From NCBI GenBank assembly GCA_036480375.1, contig JAZGGI010000024.1, forward strand, positions 186,001-250,000: a DNA stretch of 64,000 nucleotides, written 5' to 3'. This stretch comes from Candidatus Zixiibacteriota bacterium (lineage in GTDB: Bacteria > Zixibacteria > MSB-5A5 > GN15 > JAAZOE01). Shown here piece by piece: positions 3,103 to 13,406 of the stretch. The translations under genes and the position numbers were made by a program. Positions within the stretch are counted from its first letter, which is position 1. Each line of letters opens with the position of its first letter. The notes beneath the pieces are model-generated. The model was given only the letters and a program-made list of their open reading frames with translations. It was not told the DNA's origin and made no database searches.

Positions 3103-5247
3103 TTACGGACACCCCGCACACGGCGCCGGGCCGCCTTTGAATACATGGCTGATGATATAAACCGCGTCGCCAACATCGGTATTGCCGTCACAATTGGCAT
3201 CACCAGCAACAACGGGGTCAGGAGCCGGGCCGCCCTTGAAAACATGATTGATAATGAAAACCGCATCGCCAATATCAGAATTCCTGTCGCCATTGGCGTC
3301 ACCGCAAACGTAGTCACAGGCGTCGCCGATACCATCTCCATCGGAATCAGTTTGCAGGGGATTAGCTATTTCCGGACAGTTGTCAAGACCGTTACAAATG
3401 CCATCACTATCATCATCAATGCTACAATTAAGAAAAGCGATAATCTCGCGGAGGATCTTTTCGCGATCGGTCCAGCCCTGTTGATTATTGTCAATAGCCT
3501 CAAAACCAAAGCTGAAAAAAACGGAGCGATAATCGCCATTGTAAGAGATAGCGCCATAGTCCGATCGGGCACAGTATATCAGAGCAGGGGCGCCATCATT
3601 TATTGGGGCAATGTGATCATAGACAATCTGATTATTGGCGGCATCAGAACCAGAAAATTTGATTTGATCTGCCAGATCGAACACCTGATTGCCGGTATCT
3701 GCGTACATACAGGGCCAAGATAGATTCATCAAATACTCTGCACGCAGGTAGTTATGTAGAAAATCCTGATCTGTTGTGTCCAGTTGGCTGGCAATTCCCT
3801 GACCGGTAAGAAATAAGTTACCGCCGCTGTCCAAATAGTTTTTCATGGCCGCAATCTCATCTGAATCGAGCAATTGCGCTCGGTGGTCGCCGGTGAACCA
3901 GACAACCACATCGAAATTACTCAGGAATATACCCTCCAGAGGAAAAGTAAAGGCGGCATTCCAGATATCATAGATATCATATGGACAATCTGCCAAGTTC
4001 AACGCCTCTTGATAATATTGGTAGATATCATTATTGTCATCGTTATTGACTAATAGAACCATTTTTTCACCGATGGGTTTCCCAAGCTCAAACTGATCCT
4101 TCTCTGTCCCATAGTTACTCGTGTAAATCATTTCCAAATAAAATGAATCCATTTGGCTTTCATATTCTGGCGGTATTTCAAACAAGATTGGACTGGCGTT
4201 GTTATTCCCTGTGGACCTCGCCGGGATACCCCCGATGCTTGCCGACCCCTGAGTAATTATCAAATCTCCGGAAACGGCATATAACTCTATGCTACAATCT
4301 GTCAAGGGCAGAAAGTGCGGATTCTTAAAGGTGACAACCAATTCTATAGTTTCTCCACCTTCGAGTATGTTATCTCCATCACCGCCGACGACATCCGTAT
4401 AAGTCTTCCCAATCAGCTCCGGCCGATCCATCTTAAGGAAATTTACATAATTGCCAATGAAATTGGGAATCGCAAGGACATGATCATGCGGATTATAGTC
4501 AATGTTACAGGGGCCATTATAACCTGTCGCAACAAGCTCAGGAGGAGTGGTAAAATTCGAATCATACCGATAGATCGTACCACTATTGTAACCTGCAGCA
4601 TAAGTATTACCAAATTGATCTCGGGCAAGCCCGTCGCTATGTTCAAATTTTACAAGGTTAGTAACGCTTGAATCTTCAAGACTAACAGCCTGAATGTAAA
4701 GCGGACTCCCTATACCGACTACAAGCAGGCGATTGTGTTCGGCATCAAAGATCACATCTCGTGGTCCAAATCCAAGACCCGTATTAGTGTTTACAAATTC
4801 TGAGATTGAGCCATCGCCTAATTGAATCTTCCAAATTCGGTCAATCGGACCGTTACCGTTCGCGGTAGGCATATCCACAATGTATAGATTTCCTGAACTA
4901 TCAGCCGTGCACCCGCCTAAGTATCTCGAATAAGGAATATAGACATTGGAAACCATATCCGCTGTCGCAAGATCGTACCCAATTATTGATGTCATCCTGC
5001 ATTGGTAAAACGTGTTACCCACGATGCAGGCGGAATTGAAATATGGTGCCGAATCTTTGAACATGGTGACATTTCCGGATGTGTCGATCTGGATTATGTC
5101 TCCATCATAAAATAAAGAAATCAGATAGCGATTGTAAAGCGAATCCCAGGTAGCGCACTCGGGACTAGGTACTGAGATTTGTGCCCAGCCGGGGACCGAA
5201 AATGCTGCAATCAGTATAGCCGTCATCGGGATAATTAATTTATACAT
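3103..5247 (-). CDS. Secreted beta-propeller protein with ThuA-like module and dockerin-type repeats
   Basis: An exported multidomain protein of about 714 residues. I chose the ATG at 5247: AAGGAAA lies 8 bp upstream and the product then starts with a clean signal peptide (MYKLIIPMTAILIAAFS..GWAQ). The open frame itself runs up to 5352. Domain order: an SMP-30/NHL-type beta-propeller (about 30-300); a CARDB-like sandwich (GDGDNILEGGETIEL); and an alpha/beta ThuA/GATase-like module (VWFTGDHR, GGNLFLTGQG, NYLRAEY). Then come thrombospondin-type-3-like Asp loops (DSDGDGIGDACD) and two dockerin-like repeats (GDANGDRNSDIGDAVFIINH; GDANCDGNTDVGDAVYIISH). No catalytic residues are evident. The CARDB-ThuA pair recurs in the M6 peptidase at 55079. 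Function is unknown beyond a likely extracellular, Ca-binding role. Confidence 0.8.
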   Translation of the reverse strand: MYKLIIPMTAILIAAFSVPGWAQISVPSPECATWDSLYNRYLISLFYDGDIIQIDTSGNVTMFKDSAPYFNSACIVGNTFYQCRMTSIIGYDLATADMVSNVYIPYSRYLGGCTADSSGNLYIVDMPTANGNGPIDRIWKIQLGDGSISEFVNTNTGLGFGPRDVIFDAEHNRLLVVGIGSPLYIQAVSLEDSSVTNLVKFEHSDGLARDQFGNTYAAGYNSGTIYRYDSNFTTPPELVATGYNGPCNIDYNPHDHVLAIPNFIGNYVNFLKMDRPELIGKTYTDVVGGDGDNILEGGETIELVVTFKNPHFLPLTDCSIELYAVSGDLIITQGSASIGGIPARSTGNNNASPILFEIPPEYESQMDSFYLEMIYTSNYGTEKDQFELGKPIGEKMVLLVNNDDNNDIYQYYQEALNLADCPYDIYDIWNAAFTFPLEGIFLSNFDVVVWFTGDHRAQLLDSDEIAAMKNYLDSGGNLFLTGQGIASQLDTTDQDFLHNYLRAEYLMNLSWPCMYADTGNQVFDLADQIKFSGSDAANNQIVYDHIAPINDGAPALIYCARSDYGAISYNGDYRSVFFSFGFEAIDNNQQGWTDREKILREIIAFLNCSIDDDSDGICNGLDNCPEIANPLQTDSDGDGIGDACDYVCGDANGDRNSDIGDAVFIINHVFKGGPAPDPVVAGDANCDGNTDVGDAVYIISHVFKGGPAPCAGCP

Positions 5248-5540
5248 ATAAATCGTTTCCTTGATTCCAGGTCGAGCCCGTTTCAACATGTTATATAAAC
5301 CAAAATTCGGTACGCCAGTAATAAAGACTATTGAGACTATGCTCAAGAGCACTATTATTATAGGTATGGTAAGGTTACAGACTGTAAGTCAACGTAAGTC
5401 ATCCAAAAACAACCCCTGACATATCGCTTGATAACCATATAACACATCATTGTTTTTTTTTATTGTCTCCTTTATGATCACTTACTATGTTATACTTCAT
5501 TACGTGAAAGCCTAAAGACAACTCCATGTATTTACATAAC

Positions 5541-6053
5541 TTACGGTTTTAATGCCGCCGTACCCCATGTTGCCAAGCTATCCATTGACATCCCAACCGG
5601 CTTGATTATAATCCAGTTATTGCCGTTACCTTTGTTTCGGAACAACTCATTTCTCAGAAAGGCCGGATTGTTTTCACTATAGGGATCATAGCTGGCGAAG
5701 TAGAGATCCAGGTCGCCATCATGGTCGTGGTCAGCCCAGGCGGCAGCATGGGAAGGCTCATTGTCGGATGCAATTTCACCGTTGGTCATTCTTGTGAATG
5801 TACCATCGCCGTTGTTGTGGTAGAGATAGTATACATCGGTGATACTGCCGAAATTATCGTCGCAGACAAACAGGTTAGGGTAGTTGTCGCCATCATAATC
5901 TGCCCAACTGGCATCGAATGACCAGCCGCCGTCCGAGACGATTGGACTGGTTGCGACTCGAACGAACGAACTCGGATTTGGCGGCGAGGCTTCGACAGCC
6001 ACTGTGCATGAATGCAATAGCATCAAGAGCCAAACGGAGACACTGATTGCCAT
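5541..6053 (-). pseudogene. Truncated FG-GAP/VCBS repeat protein (ASPIC/UnbV-type), C-terminus lost
   Basis: 170 codons. The start is credible: AAGGGG 5 bp upstream of the ATG at 6053 and a signal peptide (MAISVSVWLLMLL..). Two FG-GAP-like blades follow: ASWADYDGDNYPNLFV and AAWADHDHDGDLDLYF, with NNGDGTF and NKGNGNNW linkers. The last piece, NNWIIIKPVGMSMDSLATWG, matches how the ASPIC/UnbV domain normally begins (NxWLxxxLxG), but the frame stops about 8 residues later and nothing resembling the remaining 60 or more residues follows. Family members are several hundred residues longer. It could still be expressed as a small secreted protein; I favour a gene remnant because the next 0.9 kb also holds fragments. 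Confidence 0.6.
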
Positions 6054-6972: not shown

Positions 6973-7000
6973 TTGATAATTTTCTCAAATTCAATATTAT
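6973..7000 (+). promoter_or_regulatory. Probable promoter of the Lon-like protease operon
   Basis: TTGATA (6973-6978), a 16-bp spacer, and TATTAT (6995-7000), placed immediately upstream of the first gene of the operon. Transcription would begin near 7007, giving a very short leader if the ATG at 7018 is used. Confidence 0.5.
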
Positions 7001-7017: not shown

Positions 7018-8115
7018 ATGCCCTTATTTTTAGCAGGCAGGATGAAAGCTAATATGCAAAACGGGGATACTATTCTACATTTCCTAAATGATTGTCATTC
7101 TCGTAAGGAGTTCAATGCCTTTTATGAACTCTGTTATCGGTCAACTATTGGATATTTACACTTTTTACGAAATAAGGGCTATCAATTGCCTTTAGCGTTG
7201 GCAACCGATAGAAATCCGGTGGTTGATCTTAGTCTGGATATTTTGGGTTCCTTTCTACGCAGCGCCAAAAATAAACCATTTTATTTAATCTTTGACTATT
7301 TCCATCAAATTGGAATTACTGATTTTCAAAATGCCGAACCGGACGAATTATACGAAAAGTTTACACCGCTGTTGTTCCGCTTCATACGGCAGGATCTCAG
7401 TAAATTAAAAAACGAAACCGACCCGCAGATAGCCAATCTCAAACACAGGGTAAATGATATTTTGAAAAGTGATAATTATACTGTCGTGTCTTCAAATTCG
7501 GGCAGAATAAAGCGCGTTATGCTGTCGAAAAATATACATTGCAATCGTGCTGAATTACCAATAATTCCTTATGAGGAAACCTTAAAAATAGTTGAAGAAT
7601 CCTATCTTAAAAGCAACAACCGGGTTGAATGGTGTAAAAATATATTTGAAACTCTGGATAAGACACCCAAATATCAAAATATCTTTATAAAACATGAACT
7701 GATTAGCGCGATAATTGCCGTCAATATGAAATACGTCGAGGTTGAGAATATTAAACCGGTATTTACTCACGATGCCGAAAGTGAAATATTATTGCGAAAA
7801 GCTGAACGGACTATCCGTGAGGTTTTACCCTGGTTTCGTATTGATGTTCTCGAAAAATATATTGGAAAAGGCAGATTGACACCGGAATATGCCGCCAATT
7901 TTGAACGAGCAATCCAGCTGTATCTGAGAGATTTTGTTTTCTCCCCACCGACGGATCTGTTACCGGTATATTTCCGTGAAGTCATGCCCCCGGAAGAACA
8001 TAGGAGATACCTGAAAAAGTATAAATATATTTTCGAAACGGCAATTCAAAAGGCTGAAGAAGAATTTCTGAGGAGATTAAAAAATCCTACAATCGTCAGA
8101 AATAGTAGCTATTAA
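7018..8115 (+). CDS. Uncharacterised helical protein, first gene of the Lon-like protease operon
   Basis: 365 residues, mostly helical, no signal peptide or membrane segment, so probably cytosolic. I do not recognise the family. The N-terminal 70 residues (FNAFYELCYRSTIGYLHFLR, then DLSLDILGSFLRS) loosely resemble sigma-factor region 2 in texture, and the next gene encodes a zf-HC2-like protein such as often sits beside sigma factors; this is only a suggestion. The start is uncertain: ATGs at 7018, 7042 and 7054 are all in frame and none has an ideal Shine-Dalgarno spacing (AAGG is 0-3 bp from the first, GGCAGG just before the second). It is followed 29 bp later by the zinc-finger gene. Confidence 0.7.
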   Translation: MPLFLAGRMKANMQNGDTILHFLNDCHSRKEFNAFYELCYRSTIGYLHFLRNKGYQLPLALATDRNPVVDLSLDILGSFLRSAKNKPFYLIFDYFHQIGITDFQNAEPDELYEKFTPLLFRFIRQDLSKLKNETDPQIANLKHRVNDILKSDNYTVVSSNSGRIKRVMLSKNIHCNRAELPIIPYEETLKIVEESYLKSNNRVEWCKNIFETLDKTPKYQNIFIKHELISAIIAVNMKYVEVENIKPVFTHDAESEILLRKAERTIREVLPWFRIDVLEKYIGKGRLTPEYAANFERAIQLYLRDFVFSPPTDLLPVYFREVMPPEEHRRYLKKYKYIFETAIQKAEEEFLRRLKNPTIVRNSSY

Positions 8116-8144
8116 TATTATGGGAAGGCAGGAAAGGAATATAA

Positions 8145-8996
8145 ATGCATCCGGATAAAGAAAAGCTGAGTTTGTATGTCGAAGGGCGGCTGGGAGATAC
8201 GGACAGTGATCTGATCGCGAAACATCTTACTCAATGCGAGTTTTGCTGTGAGTTTTGCGATAATTATGTTTTGCTGTCGAAATCAATGGAATTATCCGAA
8301 ACTGAAAATCTTCCGCCGGAAGCATTGGATTTGGCCGACCGGCTCTTTAAGCATTCAATAAAATCAAATATTATCGAGCTTAAGTTACTCGGGAGTTCTT
8401 ATGGTAGAGTAAATCACCTGGCCGCGGATGGTAATGAAATTAAACGGGAGCGGACAAAAAACATTGCGACTCTATACTCCCAGGACCCCGAAGTTGTCCT
8501 CAGGGTTATGCATGATTCGAAGCAGAAGCATGATTATCTGCAGCTTATCAGCGACGATATTAATCTTGTCTCCCGAGTAATGATTCAGCTTCCCGAGTTA
8601 GGGCATGAATTTATCACAGATGAAAACGGTTATGCCGATGCAAGAGATACTGTTTTGAGAGACTGCGATAAACTTAAATGGCAAATCAAAATGCCCGACG
8701 CCATTTTCAATTTAGAACCGCTCGTTTATGATCCGGAAAAAGTGGAATATCAGGAAGGGACTATATTTGAAACAGAAAAGCACGATAAAATTCGGATTAC
8801 GTTTCAGGGTAAGACCGTCGGGAAGCAAATAACTCTGCAGATTCTTGAACTTGAAGGTTCTTCCGATTTTGATACAATCAAAGTAGTTGTATCGCAGGGC
8901 AAAGCGACTAAAATAATCGACGCGGGACCGGATGAGGCGGTGACTTTTGATATTTCTGATCCCGCAAATCCTATAAATATAAGGTTGTTTCAATAA
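8145..8996 (+). CDS. Zinc-finger (zf-HC2-like) protein, second gene of the Lon-like protease operon
   Basis: 283 residues, preceded by AAAGGA. Residues 1-40 have the anti-sigma-type zinc-finger pattern: an N-terminal helix (KEKLSLYVEGRLG) and His27-x3-Cys31-x2-Cys34, with two extra cysteines (35, 38). Unlike classic anti-sigma factors there is no transmembrane helix. A middle helical part (about 45-150) is followed by a beta-rich C-terminal half (about 190-283; GKTVGKQITLQILELEG). Its stop codon (8994-8996) is immediately followed by the ATG of the protease gene, implying coupled translation. A plausible job is to bind a partner (perhaps the product of the first gene) and be controlled by the adjoining protease, but this is inferred from context only. 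Confidence 0.75.
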   Translation: MHPDKEKLSLYVEGRLGDTDSDLIAKHLTQCEFCCEFCDNYVLLSKSMELSETENLPPEALDLADRLFKHSIKSNIIELKLLGSSYGRVNHLAADGNEIKRERTKNIATLYSQDPEVVLRVMHDSKQKHDYLQLISDDINLVSRVMIQLPELGHEFITDENGYADARDTVLRDCDKLKWQIKMPDAIFNLEPLVYDPEKVEYQEGTIFETEKHDKIRITFQGKTVGKQITLQILELEGSSDFDTIKVVVSQGKATKIIDAGPDEAVTFDISDPANPINIRLFQ

Positions 8997-11255
8997 ATGA
9001 GTGTGTCGCCGTTACAATTCGCGCAGGAGTTCGAAAAATTCAAATCTGAACTTTCGAAAATCCCGGCCGAGGATATCCAGATTCTTCGCTTAATGGATTT
9101 CTGGCCCAATCTCAAAGAAAAAGTTACCGATCGAAGCTATCAAAGCTATTTTGAAGAGTATCATGCCTATCTGGTGTCACTGTTAAATCACGATAATTTG
9201 AATGACCTTACAATCGATGAATTAAAACAACTTGCCGAAGCTATAATTGATATTCAACATTTTCAAAGTGATGATGAATTTATTGAATCTCTCAATTTTG
9301 TTTATACAAAATTGGCCTCATTGTACTTCTACGTCGGCGATATTGACGAGGGGTTGAAACTATGCGGGACGATAATTGGGGATGAGAGCTTATCAATTCC
9401 GGATATTATATCAGCAAGCCAGGATGCATATTCGGCCTTTAATACTGTTTACGATTATTTTAAGGATTCCCATCCTCAGTTTTTCCGACTTTTATCACAA
9501 ATCCACGATGAGTGGGAATCGGTGCGAGACGCCTATTATTATGACCGAGTTTATTGCCTCTTTGTCGAAAAAACCGATCATGGCCGGTCACTTAGGGGGC
9601 GAATGAGGCTTCTTAAAGGCTCAGTGGAATACTTTGATAAGAATGCCACCACCGACGAGATCACTTTCGATAATCAAATAAAAACACCGGACGATCCCTT
9701 TGTCGGGGCATCTTATGATGCCCTTAAGGCGGTGCGTGGAATTTTTAAGAATTTGAATTACAAAACCGAATCAACTTCGTTCTATCATGCTCATTTTGCG
9801 ATCCATGAAAGCGGGCAGACTTTTACCGGAGATTCCATCGGGCTGGCGACGGGACTTTTGGCATATACCCAATTAATGCGCCCGGATATTTCGAGAGTTG
9901 ACCGCTTTCTCTCGGCCGAGATAGCCTGCACCGGAGGGATTGAAGAATCAGGTCAAATTACTAAAGTCAACGATGAATCCTTGAAATACAAAATTGAAAG
10001 AGCCTTTTTCTCGCCTGTTAAATATCTGGTTTTGCCAAAAGACAATCAGACTGAAGCAGATAATTATCTCAAACAACTTCAAAAAAGATACCCGAAGCGC
10101 AATCTAATTATAATTGGCCTCTACAAATTCAGCGACGCTATCGAAAACCGCAATATCCTTCGTGATGAAAAAGTCTGTATCGGCGAGTTTGTCACCAAGA
10201 AAGCAATAAAATATTCCCGCGCCGCTAAAATCCAGGTCCCGATACTTCTGGCTTTATTGTACGCACTTATATGTATCATCTATCCCAAAGCGTGGATCGG
10301 CTTCGATTGGAATCCGCAGTATGTGCAACCGACTGAAACCGGATTTATTGCACTGAATGCTGATTCGGTACCTCTGTGGTCGGTTGAATTTGACAGTGAA
10401 TCACTTACAAACTCATCAAAATGGAAAATCGGAGATCTTGATGATGATGGAAAGAACGAGGTGGCGTTTATTCCAACTACACTGCCAGTTTGTGATATTA
10501 ATGCTAATCTTTTCCTATACGATGATGACAAAGACCTAATTTTTCAAGATACATGTGTTATATTGAACGAATATATAGGGGACACAACGCTGCAACAGCC
10601 ATATTTCCCTGGAGATATCGACTTTATTTCTAAAGAAGAAAGTCCAATAATAATCTCCAGAATTAAGAAATCCTTTCCGGCACGCTTACATCTAAAATTC
10701 TGGAATATGAATGGTGACCCACTTGGGTGGTATATTAATGCGGGATTCAGCGGAGCAAGTGGTAAGTGTTTTGCAAATGTCCAAGATGAAGGATTGTTCT
10801 TTCTGAGTTATAATAATCGCATGGATTGTGCATGTTTATTTGTTCTTGACCCCGATTCCAGCTATGGCACATCGCCACCCTATGGCATGAATAATAAAAA
10901 GGGCAAACAAAAATGTTACATATTATTCCCCAGAACAGATTTGAATAAGGTCAACCTTTGCAAATATAACTATCCCGGAAAACTCGTTGTTGAATCAGAT
11001 AGTCTATTTATGGTAGAAATCGGCGAAATGAATAATCTGAGTTCTCGGATCAGGTACTATTTTAACAAAGATTTTCGAGTGTTTGATGTTAAAGCTGAAG
11101 ATCCGTTTATTAATGCAAGAGATAAAGCGGTTAGAGAGAGTAAACTTGATCCAATAGAGTGGCAAACTTACTTGGAAGATCTACGCGATGGAGTAACGTA
11201 CTGGATTGATTCTGATTGGGTTACCGAAGGCGAACTTCGCGCCGCCGAAAAATAA
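8997..11255 (+). CDS. Membrane-anchored Lon-type (S16) Ser/Lys protease without ATPase domain
   Basis: 752 residues. Residues 1-230 are helical (TPR-like texture). Residues about 235-395 match the Lon proteolytic domain: catalytic-type serine S280 in TGDSIGLATGLLAY and lysine K330 in NDESLKYKIERAF, which aligns with Lon GIKEKLLAA; SAEIACTGGIEESGQI corresponds to Lon A-x-TGEI. There is no Walker A/B ATPase. One membrane helix follows (about 413-430, IQVPILLALLYALICIIY). The last 320 residues are probably extracytoplasmic and include an FG-GAP-like loop (GDLDDDGKNEVAF). The protease would thus sit on the cytosolic side of the membrane with an outside sensor-like domain. The gene starts on the base after the stop of the zinc-finger gene. 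Substrate unknown. Confidence 0.85.
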   Translation: MSVSPLQFAQEFEKFKSELSKIPAEDIQILRLMDFWPNLKEKVTDRSYQSYFEEYHAYLVSLLNHDNLNDLTIDELKQLAEAIIDIQHFQSDDEFIESLNFVYTKLASLYFYVGDIDEGLKLCGTIIGDESLSIPDIISASQDAYSAFNTVYDYFKDSHPQFFRLLSQIHDEWESVRDAYYYDRVYCLFVEKTDHGRSLRGRMRLLKGSVEYFDKNATTDEITFDNQIKTPDDPFVGASYDALKAVRGIFKNLNYKTESTSFYHAHFAIHESGQTFTGDSIGLATGLLAYTQLMRPDISRVDRFLSAEIACTGGIEESGQITKVNDESLKYKIERAFFSPVKYLVLPKDNQTEADNYLKQLQKRYPKRNLIIIGLYKFSDAIENRNILRDEKVCIGEFVTKKAIKYSRAAKIQVPILLALLYALICIIYPKAWIGFDWNPQYVQPTETGFIALNADSVPLWSVEFDSESLTNSSKWKIGDLDDDGKNEVAFIPTTLPVCDINANLFLYDDDKDLIFQDTCVILNEYIGDTTLQQPYFPGDIDFISKEESPIIISRIKKSFPARLHLKFWNMNGDPLGWYINAGFSGASGKCFANVQDEGLFFLSYNNRMDCACLFVLDPDSSYGTSPPYGMNNKKGKQKCYILFPRTDLNKVNLCKYNYPGKLVVESDSLFMVEIGEMNNLSSRIRYYFNKDFRVFDVKAEDPFINARDKAVRESKLDPIEWQTYLEDLRDGVTYWIDSDWVTEGELRAAEK

Positions 11256-11465
11256 AAAAATAACTTACCTTCCCGCTAATAACTCAAAATATTTTCTATA
11301 AACCAGCCATCTCGTTCCTATTACATCTATAGATACAGATTAGCCAAAGGGTCAATAATAATAGCCAAAGAAAGTTCGTGATGCTAAAAAACAAAATGTA
11401 CCATGCAAAATACCTAATTGGGGTATTTCAAAGACTACTTAACTCCATTTCGAAAGGATAATGCT

Positions 11466-13406
11466 ATGCTAAAATCTCTGATGACCTTACTCATCATATT
11501 TGCGGTTCTGTCGGTGGGGGGGAGGCTCGCAGCAGAACCTCTCTTTGATGCAGCTGTCAACTATCCAGTTGGTGCCGTTCCGAATGATATCTTCTCGGCT
11601 GATTATGACGGTGATGGCGATGAGGACCTGGCTGTAACCAATTCTGGTTCGGACAACATAGGCATCCTTATGAACAACGGTGACGGTACCTTTGCGACGC
11701 CGGTTGATTATTACGTTGGTGAGAACACGCATTCCGTGTTTTCGGAAGACTTCGATAGAGATGGTTACCCTGACCTGGTCGTATCGAATTACAACAGCAG
11801 CAGTTGCGTAGGTGTTGTCTCAGTATTGATTAACAATGGCGATGGGACGTTTGCACCGCCTGTAAACTACGTAGCCGGCGGTTGCCCACAATCCGTTTTC
11901 TCGGCGGATTTCGACGGCAACGGCTCTCCTGACTTGGCGGTAGCTAACGCCGGTTCTGATGATGTGTCGGTCCTGATCAACAACGGTGACGGCACCTTTG
12001 CAGCCCCCGTCAATTACCCTGTTGGTAACTATACGGTTTCTGTCATCTCGGCAGACTTTGACGGTGACGGCTGTTTGGACCTTGCCGTGGTCGGCTTCTG
12101 GACTTATGATGTTTCCATCATGATAAACAACTGCGACGGCTCGTTTGCACCACCCGTCAGTTATCCGGTAGGCGCGCTACCGACATCAGTATTTGCAGCT
12201 GATTATGACGGTGATGGCGATGAGGACTTGGCTGTGACAAATGGTGGCCCCGACAATGTCTCTGTCTTATTGAACAATGGTTACGGCATTTTTGGGCTGG
12301 CTGGTACTTATCCAGTTGGTGCAGGACCGCGTTCCGTTATTGCTGCCGATTTCAATGGCAATGGCTTCGCCGACTTGGCAGTATCCAATCAGAACTCCGA
12401 CGATTTATCCATCCTAATGAACAACGGTGATAGCTCGTTTGCGGTGGCTTTCAGTCTTCCAGTCGGTGACCAACCGTACTTTATCTCATCGGCCGACTTC
12501 GATAACAACGGCTTTCCGGACCTTGCTGTACCCAATAAAGGTTCCAACACTGTCTCAATCCTGATGAATCAGTTGTCGATGACGCTCCCCGTCCACCTCG
12601 ACATCAAGCCAGGATCATGTCCCAATCCGCTAAACGTTAAAGTGAAAGACCCGGATTTTTATTACTGGGAACCTCCCGAAAACAATAATGGCGGTGAATC
12701 AGGAAATGAAAGTTCGGATGCCTATAAGCAAATTCCAAATGGACCGATAAAAAAATGGGCTGTAGTACCGGCAGCGATCTTGGGCACGGCTGATTTTGAT
12801 GCCAGCGATATTAACCAGTCGACAATTACACTTGAAGGGATTCCAGTTGTACGCTGGAATTATGAAGATGTCGCTACTCCGATGCCAGTCGATGCAACCG
12901 AATGCGATTGCAACGCCGACGGCCCGGACGGTTTTTTAGATTTAACTCTCATGTTTGGCCGAAGTGAATTAAAAGAAGCGCTGGGTGAGGTTAATGATGG
13001 CGATGTTATTACTCTGACTATCTCCGGAGAATTAAATGACGGAACACCCTTTGAAGGAACTGACTGCGTTATTATCAGGGGAAATCCGGAGCCCGAGGGG
13101 ATACCATTTGCCAACAATACAAGTTCAGACCAATCAATGTTATTGGGCAACTATCCCAATCCGTTCAATCCGTCAACGACAATTGGCTATAATCTTGTTC
13201 AGGGCGGTCATGTCAAGTTGGAGATATTCAATATCTCAGGACAGAGAATCGTCTCTCTGGTCAATGAGGAAAAGGAAGCCGGATTGCATTCAGTCGTTTG
13301 GGACGGCAAAGATAGCTCCGGCCGTCAGGTTGCCAGCGGAATCTATTTCTACCGGCTGGAGGCTGGCGAGTTTTCTGATACCAGGAAGATGATTCTGATG
13401 AAGTAG
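11466..13406 (+). CDS. Secreted FG-GAP/VCBS repeat protein with FlgD-type C-terminal sorting domain
   Basis: 646 residues from the ATG at 11466, chosen because AAAGGA lies 7 bp upstream and a signal peptide (MLKSLMTLLIIFAVLSV..) follows; the frame is open from 11418. Seven to eight FG-GAP blades of about 47 residues fill residues 25-375, each with a DFDGDG/DYDGDG calcium loop, a DLAV strand and a NNGDGTF turn; together they should fold as a beta-propeller. An IKPGSCPNPLNVK domain follows (about 380-540), then the FlgD/Por sorting module (NYPNPFNPS, VVWDGKDSSG, GIYFYRL, KMILMK). FG-GAP propellers bind ligands or proteins at the cell surface. Near-identical DNA at 11602 and 12200 shows that blades arose by recent duplication. 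Confidence 0.88.
   Translation: MLKSLMTLLIIFAVLSVGGRLAAEPLFDAAVNYPVGAVPNDIFSADYDGDGDEDLAVTNSGSDNIGILMNNGDGTFATPVDYYVGENTHSVFSEDFDRDGYPDLVVSNYNSSSCVGVVSVLINNGDGTFAPPVNYVAGGCPQSVFSADFDGNGSPDLAVANAGSDDVSVLINNGDGTFAAPVNYPVGNYTVSVISADFDGDGCLDLAVVGFWTYDVSIMINNCDGSFAPPVSYPVGALPTSVFAADYDGDGDEDLAVTNGGPDNVSVLLNNGYGIFGLAGTYPVGAGPRSVIAADFNGNGFADLAVSNQNSDDLSILMNNGDSSFAVAFSLPVGDQPYFISSADFDNNGFPDLAVPNKGSNTVSILMNQLSMTLPVHLDIKPGSCPNPLNVKVKDPDFYYWEPPENNNGGESGNESSDAYKQIPNGPIKKWAVVPAAILGTADFDASDINQSTITLEGIPVVRWNYEDVATPMPVDATECDCNADGPDGFLDLTLMFGRSELKEALGEVNDGDVITLTISGELNDGTPFEGTDCVIIRGNPEPEGIPFANNTSSDQSMLLGNYPNPFNPSTTIGYNLVQGGHVKLEIFNISGQRIVSLVNEEKEAGLHSVVWDGKDSSGRQVASGIYFYRLEAGEFSDTRKMILMK

Follow-up and report, generated by a model that had tools for sequence, protein, structure and literature searches.

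A candidate outside-to-gene signalling cassette with a membrane-spanning Lon-type protease in Candidatus Zixiibacteriota

A 64,000-nucleotide stretch of DNA (here the window; positions 186,001 to 250,000 of contig JAZGGI010000024.1, assembly GCA_036480375.1) from a 3.6-Mb genome, whose named relatives are 'Candidatus Zixiibacteriota', codes for four consecutive plus-strand genes, P1 to P4, that almost certainly form one cassette. P1 is a helical protein of a new family, P2 is a soluble zinc protein resembling anti-sigma factors, P3 is predicted to be a Lon-type protease tethered to the membrane below an outer FG-GAP-like domain, and P4 is a secreted surface protein preceded by a bipartite DNA element with a rigid spacer. 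The best explanation overall, to which we give an even chance, is a self-contained outside-to-gene signalling cassette running from P3 through P2 and P1 to P4. The features that carry this reading are taken from the sequence and from models built on it: the genes with their order and conservation, the Lon fold and its dyad, the zinc site, the predicted topology, the swapping of the sensor domain, P4, and the spaced elements. The four genes are as follows.

7018..8115, plus strand: P1, open reading frame (ORF) of 365 amino acids (aa); helical, new family, predicted promoter-recognising regulator; start placed at the first ATG, with ATGs further in also possible
8145..8996, plus strand: P2, ORF; soluble ZAS/zf-HC2 protein, predicted inhibitor of P1, with a C-terminal domain that is beta-rich by pattern
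8997..11255, plus strand: P3, ORF; helical N-terminal region (residues 5-178), Lon-type protease domain (about 184-392), membrane helix (410-428), outer FG-GAP-like beta domain (about 432-752)
11466..13406, plus strand: P4, secreted surface protein; six FG-GAP_3 repeats and a FlgD_ig/Por_Secre_tail C terminus

Organization and distribution of the cassette

The original prediction described the first three genes, with P3 beginning directly after P2, and their coordinates were verified, all on the plus strand: the first base of P3 in the window is the base right after the P2 stop codon. It also proposed looking for the same trio in other genomes, where the trio is indeed conserved; all of the approximately 40 loci with three readable genes, from many families of one phylum, have P1, P2, and P3 in this order on one strand, and in most of them P2 and P3 lie next to each other or share a few bases. 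Of 132 genomes from the phylum Zixibacteria, 38 carry P1. Relatives of P3 occur in 22 of 60 near genomes, and P3 matches are found in 55 of the 132, of which about 15 read as ordinary LonA and five are kinase-type proteins (see below), leaving approximately 35. The distribution is patchy, with P1 in two of the seven genomes of the window's own family and up to four copies in some genomes. Two subfamilies have identical gene order: A, which includes window-like loci, and B, with ∼15% identity in P1 and ∼22% in P2. A wider genome scan with a tighter P3 alignment gave matches only in Zixibacteria and metagenome-assembled genomes, and because the scan used two short patterns, absence elsewhere is not proven. 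No viral copies of P3 were found. PADLOC gave weak matches only, among them a CARF_LON match that reflects the Lon domain, and identity as a defence system was rejected.

P4 and the bipartite element

In nearly all loci, the gene after P3 codes for a secreted protein on the same strand, 7 to 450 nt away, and 27 of 30 such downstream genes have a signal-peptide-like start. Sorting-type tails are found in 22 of 30 P4 genes; in the control set, next genes at other places in these loci, 7 of 109 have one (Fisher, 3e-13). The tail models used for these counts were trained on the downstream genes themselves; the tails are supported independently by Pfam, with Por_Secre_tail, FlgD_ig, or dockerin above cut-off in nine of ten P4 proteins tested. 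The difference is similar when only genes of at least 400 aa are counted (20/23 for P4 versus 3/28 for the control). The bodies of the P4 proteins vary by locus and include FG-GAP, laminin-G, carbohydrate-binding, and fibronectin types, and no TonB-dependent receptor is present among ten scanned downstream proteins (FG-GAP, laminin-G, dockerin, or sorting-tail). The window P4 opens as an ORF at the TTG at 11418, and its start is assigned to the ATG at 11466, which follows GAAAGGAT.

Neither P4 nor the element ahead of it featured in the original prediction, and together they now bear most of the functional argument. The element lies between P3 and P4, is 31 bp long, and has the consensus TTTTC[TC]ACAAA-N11-GNNNCTATT with a rigid 11-nt spacer. 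Two copies are found in the window.

11292..11322, plus strand: strong element TTTTCTATAAA-N11-GTTCCTATT; 23.2 bits, the top match of the window, predicted private promoter of P4
8083..8113, plus strand: weaker element AATCCTACAAT-N11-GTAGCTATT; 14.3 bits with the P4-trained matrix, within the 3' end of P1

With leave-one-out training, 29 of 32 loci have the P3-P4 element at p<=0.01 relative to shuffles, and five shuffled windows gave no match of at least 15 bits. A relaxed version of the pattern matches once in the window's own genome, at the cassette. Among the matches listed for the 132 genomes, four are perfect (G032, G041, G045, and G014), and all are at P3-P4 junctions, as judged by comparing their positions with those of P3 and outer-domain matches. 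Specificity is claimed only for the perfect matches and the relaxed own-genome pattern, because two-mismatch counts across the 132 genomes are not above those of a backward control. Likewise, a search for a regulon in the window's own genome with three mismatches returned 18 matches versus 37 in the backward control, so that no further targets can be claimed there.

A second site precedes P2, present at p<=0.01 in 26 of 43 loci, whereas the corresponding count upstream of P1 is 0 of 39. It lies 27 ± 7 nt from the P2 start, typically 23 to 35 nt (31 nt in the window), and its distance to the P1 stop is more variable (standard deviation, 18). Two unlike boxes at fixed spacing, typically 23 to 35 nt before P2, provide what a −35/−10 promoter requires, and ∼30 nt leaves fitting room for a −10 box followed by start and ribosome sites. 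We regard the element with good confidence as a control site of the cassette. Additional strong elements are located outside the P2 and P4 positions at L036 5179-5209, L046 11308-11338, and L084 3889-3919, two of them just after P4, which suggests that more genes are under the same control in some genomes.

P3, a Lon-type protease predicted to cross the membrane

The P3 profile matches LonB of Archaeoglobus fulgidus (E, 5e-5), with Ser280 and Lys332 aligned to the catalytic pair, and the AlphaFold model of P3 (mean predicted local distance difference test [pLDDT] score, 87.7) matches the proteolytic domain of Escherichia coli Lon with a TM-score to target of ∼0.8 (up to 0.81; E, ∼5e-8). Lon_C of Pfam is matched by 8 of 28 members. 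The non-ATPase S16 domain that had been proposed for P3 is borne out by both comparisons, and neither of the outcomes named beforehand as refuting it, a trio lacking conservation in other genomes or a predicted structure with the dyad outside a Lon-like active site, was seen. No family match to an AAA+ ATPase module was found in P3 or its homologues, a lone ChlI match being to a Lon-like fold family, and there is no match to a SAVED domain in Pfam or PADLOC.

9834..9836, plus strand: catalytic Ser280 (GDS motif), Ser in 39/39 homologues
9990..9992, plus strand: catalytic Lys332, Lys in 37/37 homologues, aligned with the catalytic Lys of LonB
10224..10280, plus strand: P3 membrane helix, residues 410-428, hydropathy 2.28

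The dyad was at first read as Ser280 with Lys330, and the serine stands, but the lysine is two residues off. Position 330 varies freely among the homologues (R, K, A, P, G, N, F, S, E, H, or Q), which rules out K330, and the dyad is assigned as S280/K332 because both residues are invariant and K332 falls on the LonB catalytic lysine while 330 varies. P3 very probably has an active Lon-type site.

The N-terminal part of P3 is helical in the model, and basic residues flank the membrane helix on its N side. Simple hydropathy predicts one helix in 17 and two in 11 of the 28 members, and FG-GAP_3 matches are present in the outer part of 14 of them. The single membrane helix and the FG-GAP-like outside domain of the original prediction are both retained, and by its predicted topology P3 has a non-ATPase Lon-fold protease on the inside that a lone membrane helix connects to the FG-GAP-like part on the outside.

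The outer domain is found on a second type of protein

Five genomes, all from other families (G101, G102, G106, G107, and G121), have the part of P3 from the membrane helix outward (model positions 412-721) as the C-terminal part of a different protein, which inside the cell is predicted to carry HATPase_c (above the Pfam cut-off in 4/4 scanned). These proteins have the same topology as P3, most with an extra N-terminal membrane helix, and are located as follows.

L149, 1616-3667: kinase-type outer-domain protein
L150, 3727-5805: kinase-type outer-domain protein
L151, 214-2292: kinase-type outer-domain protein
L152, 5142-6710: kinase-type outer-domain protein
L153, 87-2195: kinase-type outer-domain protein

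A phylum search with the outer domain alone recovered Lon-type and HATPase-type architectures only, plus fragments. In searches of the 132 genomes, the five kinase-type genomes yielded no P1, P2, or Lon-domain version, and the kinase-type loci examined lack a bipartite element of at least 14 bits. At least two of the kinase-type genes (L150 and L151) are followed by a gene for a secreted protein with the same tail types. Because it is also fused to HATPase_c proteins of the same topology, the outer domain together with the membrane helix is, as read from these fusions, a swappable sensor module; the shared fusions and downstream tails tie it to signal reception and to the surface protein, whatever the output inside. 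The regulated-proteolysis-like layout first proposed for the trio gains support from this second use of the outer domain on a histidine-kinase-type ATPase, as well as from the conserved trio and the Lon fold and dyad. L150 also holds a response-regulator-like gene (7772-9199).

P2, a zinc anti-sigma-like protein

P2 had been called zf-HC2-like, and this description holds up, with a sub-threshold match in the window protein (18.6 bits; curated cut-off, 22.2) and family matches at E<=1 in 18 of 41 members.

8223..8246, plus strand: P2 zinc motif H27-x3-C31-x2-C34, invariant in 41 members

Besides the three zinc residues, A93, A94, and G162 are invariant in the 41 sequences, and a His or Cys near residue 2 at the N terminus of nearly all members is the presumed fourth ligand. 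The N-terminal part aligns with the anti-sigma structures 3hug_B, RsiW, and DdvA (E, 3e-4 to 7e-3), the first of which we take to be RslA, the partner of SigL. No membrane helix is present in 40 of 41 P2 proteins, and the rest of P2 is predicted by pattern to be a beta-rich domain. The invariant residues 93-94 (window 8421-8426) are the Ala-Ala of an LAADG sequence between the zinc and beta domains, a candidate cleavage or degron site; cleavage behind LAA might produce an ssrA-like tail. P2 is genetically linked to P1 and quite likely inhibits it.

P1, a helical protein of a new family

The AlphaFold model of P1 (mean pLDDT, 89.5) is all-helical except for one beta hairpin, in keeping with the helical protein first described. 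P1, with a family alignment of 41 members, has no match in Pfam, NCBIfam, PDB sequences, PDB folds (Foldseek), or viral folds; MyD88/TIR matches were weak (E, ∼0.3) and are taken as chance. P1 probably acts through the bipartite element. Its own gene has a different upstream region, with a sigma-70-like promoter that can be read directly.

6973..7000, plus strand: TTGATA-N16-TATTAT, ahead of P1

TTGA-N19-TATA-type dyads recur upstream of P1 at 7 of 37 loci, against a maximum of 4 in shuffles, and resemble ordinary sigma-70 promoters.

Proposed mechanism and alternatives

Binding of the elements by P1, inhibition of P1 by P2, cleavage of P2 by P3, and the nature of the signal are what we infer. 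P3 would be a one-piece transmembrane receptor-protease whose outer domain senses a signal and activates the Ser280/Lys332 protease inside. The signal may be P4 itself, the state of its secretion, or a ligand that it handles; genes of this kind accompany the sensor domain in both architectures, which makes P4 or its export state a candidate. The most likely substrate would be P2, a soluble anti-sigma-like zinc protein holding P1 inactive, and we put cleavage of P2 by P3 at slightly better than an even chance. P1 freed by this cleavage would drive transcription from the element ahead of P4 as output and from the one ahead of P2-P3 as feedback, restoring inhibitor and sensor, while the P1 gene itself would be transcribed from an ordinary promoter. 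In its most far-reaching form, the proposal is that a transmembrane receptor with a Lon-type output directly frees a new promoter-specificity factor outside the sigma family, each cassette has a private promoter for its one surface protein, and the same sensor sits on a kinase-type ATPase in relatives; this we hold only tentatively.

Several observations weigh against this scheme, in addition to the training of the tail models noted above. Sigma70_r2 of Pfam matches none of the 41 P1 members, Foldseek gave no fold match for P1 against PDB and viral models, and profile comparisons of P1 with 7 and then 22 sigma factors of its own phylum (N- and C-terminal halves included) were negative, the best probability with the 22 being 1.8%, versus 100% for a positive control of sigma factors split in two halves; reversed controls were also run. 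The faint sigma-region-2 texture first noticed in P1 is thus not upheld, and 'sigma-like' refers to promoter geometry only, because sigma homology was not detected; whether P1 is sigma-like rather than an activator is evenly balanced. The site upstream of P2 overlaps P1 coding sequence, in frame in 18 of 25 loci, and its conservation could be partly coding. Coding alone is insufficient, because the distance to P2 is steadier and, of the 25 better sites, 9 extend past the P1 ORF and 7 are out of the main P1 frame. This site is also weak or absent in several subfamily B loci (e.g., L042, L044, and L046). Lastly, L154 has P3 without P1 or P2 and L079 has a P1-P2 pair without P3; the remaining incomplete loci stop at contig ends or in N stretches.

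The lack of sigma homology favours a reading in which P1 is a classical DNA-binding activator or repressor, with the element as its operator and with P2 and P3 exerting control through binding or proteolysis. In the P1 model, a Lys/Arg-rich helix (136-149) precedes a short beta hairpin (154-158 and 165-169), an arrangement that could be a winged-helix-like piece. The element, however, is asymmetric, with two unlike boxes at fixed spacing instead of a palindrome, and it lies ∼30 nt ahead of P2 and as close as 29 nt to P4 starts, a placement with core-promoter geometry; we consider a classical regulator possible but unlikely. A host sigma factor or regulator unrelated to the cassette could instead read the element, leaving P1 with another role. 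The window's own genome codes for 19 sigma-70-type factors, and single one-mismatch matches also occur in genomes without the trio, but the element co-occurs with P1, is missing from kinase-type loci, and has its perfect matches listed in the phylum all at trio loci, with one strong site in the window's own genome. These associations make an unrelated reader quite improbable.

The protease itself may have another target. ATPase-free Lon enzymes need substrates that are easily unfolded or are presented to them, and the P2 and P3 genes are tightly coupled, so P2 could be an adaptor presenting P1, or P4 during export, for cleavage by P3. P4 is exported, but the protease is predicted to be inside, and the combination of a ZAS with a soluble beta domain fits an inhibitor that undergoes cleavage in the way that CalpL cuts CalpT (PMC11417357); an adaptor role is improbable, if a little less so than an unrelated reader of the element. 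That the Lon domain is catalytically dead and transmits only a conformational change would accord with its lack of an ATPase, but the Ser and Lys are invariant in all homologues, including very divergent ones, and we give this reading very little weight. The scheme in which P3 cuts P2 to free P1 remains the one that we prefer.

Neighbouring genes

Just upstream of the cassette, on the minus strand of the window, are genes for secreted proteins (3103-5352 and 5541-6053) that combine FG-GAP-like repeats with a dockerin-like tail, a type common in this genome. An ordinary extracytoplasmic function (ECF) sigma gene and a large TPR-like protein recur beside the trio (L042 1-3078, L043 10906-14775, and L046 11543-15001), and in L042 and L046 this sigma gene is followed by a small zf-HC2-like gene, a recurring second regulatory set. 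A large protein upstream of the trio in L041 (830-3604) has TPR and CHAT-like (caspase-type) parts, by eye, and is either unrelated or an alternative protease partner. The P3 gene of L154 (5502-7076), its outer part in an N stretch, adjoins an ordinary sigma-70-type gene on the opposite strand (4248-4946), and the P1-P2 pair of L079 (4199-6228), which has a diverged P2 C terminus and lies near an integrase-like gene, looks like a disrupted cassette.

Significance and comparison with known systems

No description of the cassette was found in the open-access literature, and we know of no described system with this set of parts. In the known routes that link an outside signal with an anti-sigma factor, either a receptor works with separate proteases or the inhibitor spans the membrane; to our knowledge, no described system joins sensor and protease in one protein that acts with a soluble inhibitor. 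Should P1 drive the element despite its lack of sigma homology, it would represent a new type of factor that recognises promoters. With its small size and a promoter and reporter gene of its own, the cassette lends itself to reconstruction and testing in E. coli, and it would be a first handle on the control of the many secreted surface proteins in an uncultured phylum.

Individual features have parallels elsewhere. Since YlbL (DdcP) of Bacillus subtilis is a membrane-tethered Lon protease domain without an ATPase (PMC6051672), such proteases are known to exist. Unlike P3, YlbL has a PDZ domain, probably faces outward, clears YneA after DNA damage, and lies outside signalling operons. A surface protein with a type IX tail signals into a sigma pathway in the PorY-PorX-SigP/PorA system of Porphyromonas gingivalis (PMC7712824), which, in contrast to the cassette, is a two-component system with a genuine ECF sigma factor and no Lon protease. 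As in RseA/DegS/RseP and RsiW/PrsW/RasP, an outside signal would free a transcription factor through proteolysis of an anti-sigma factor (PMC10202637), but those systems cut a membrane-spanning inhibitor with separate proteases, whereas the cassette would pair a soluble inhibitor with a single protein that is both sensor and protease.

In cell-surface signalling of the FecI-FecR-FecA type (PMC9249621), too, a regulator is followed by its inhibitor and by a surface gene under the regulator's own promoter, but the cassette has no TonB-dependent receptor or membrane anti-sigma factor, and the receptor P3 itself carries the protease. CalpL-CalpT-CalpS is a type III CRISPR-associated set of Lon protease, anti-sigma factor, and ECF sigma factor in which activation leads to cleavage of the inhibitor (PMC11417357, PMC12751052), and here as there the three genes supply a Lon protease without an ATPase, a partner of anti-sigma type, and a regulator of transcription. 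CalpL, however, senses cyclic tetra-adenylate (cA4) in the cytosol by its SAVED domain, whereas the sensor of P3 is its FG-GAP-like domain on the other side of the membrane; P1 cannot be recognised as a sigma factor, and the cassette has as its output the surface gene next to it, which has a private element. Because searches for a SAVED domain, a TonB receptor, and a sigma factor recognisable as such found none of them, the cassette is a member of neither system, and by analogy it appears to work like CalpL/T/S or FecI/R/A.

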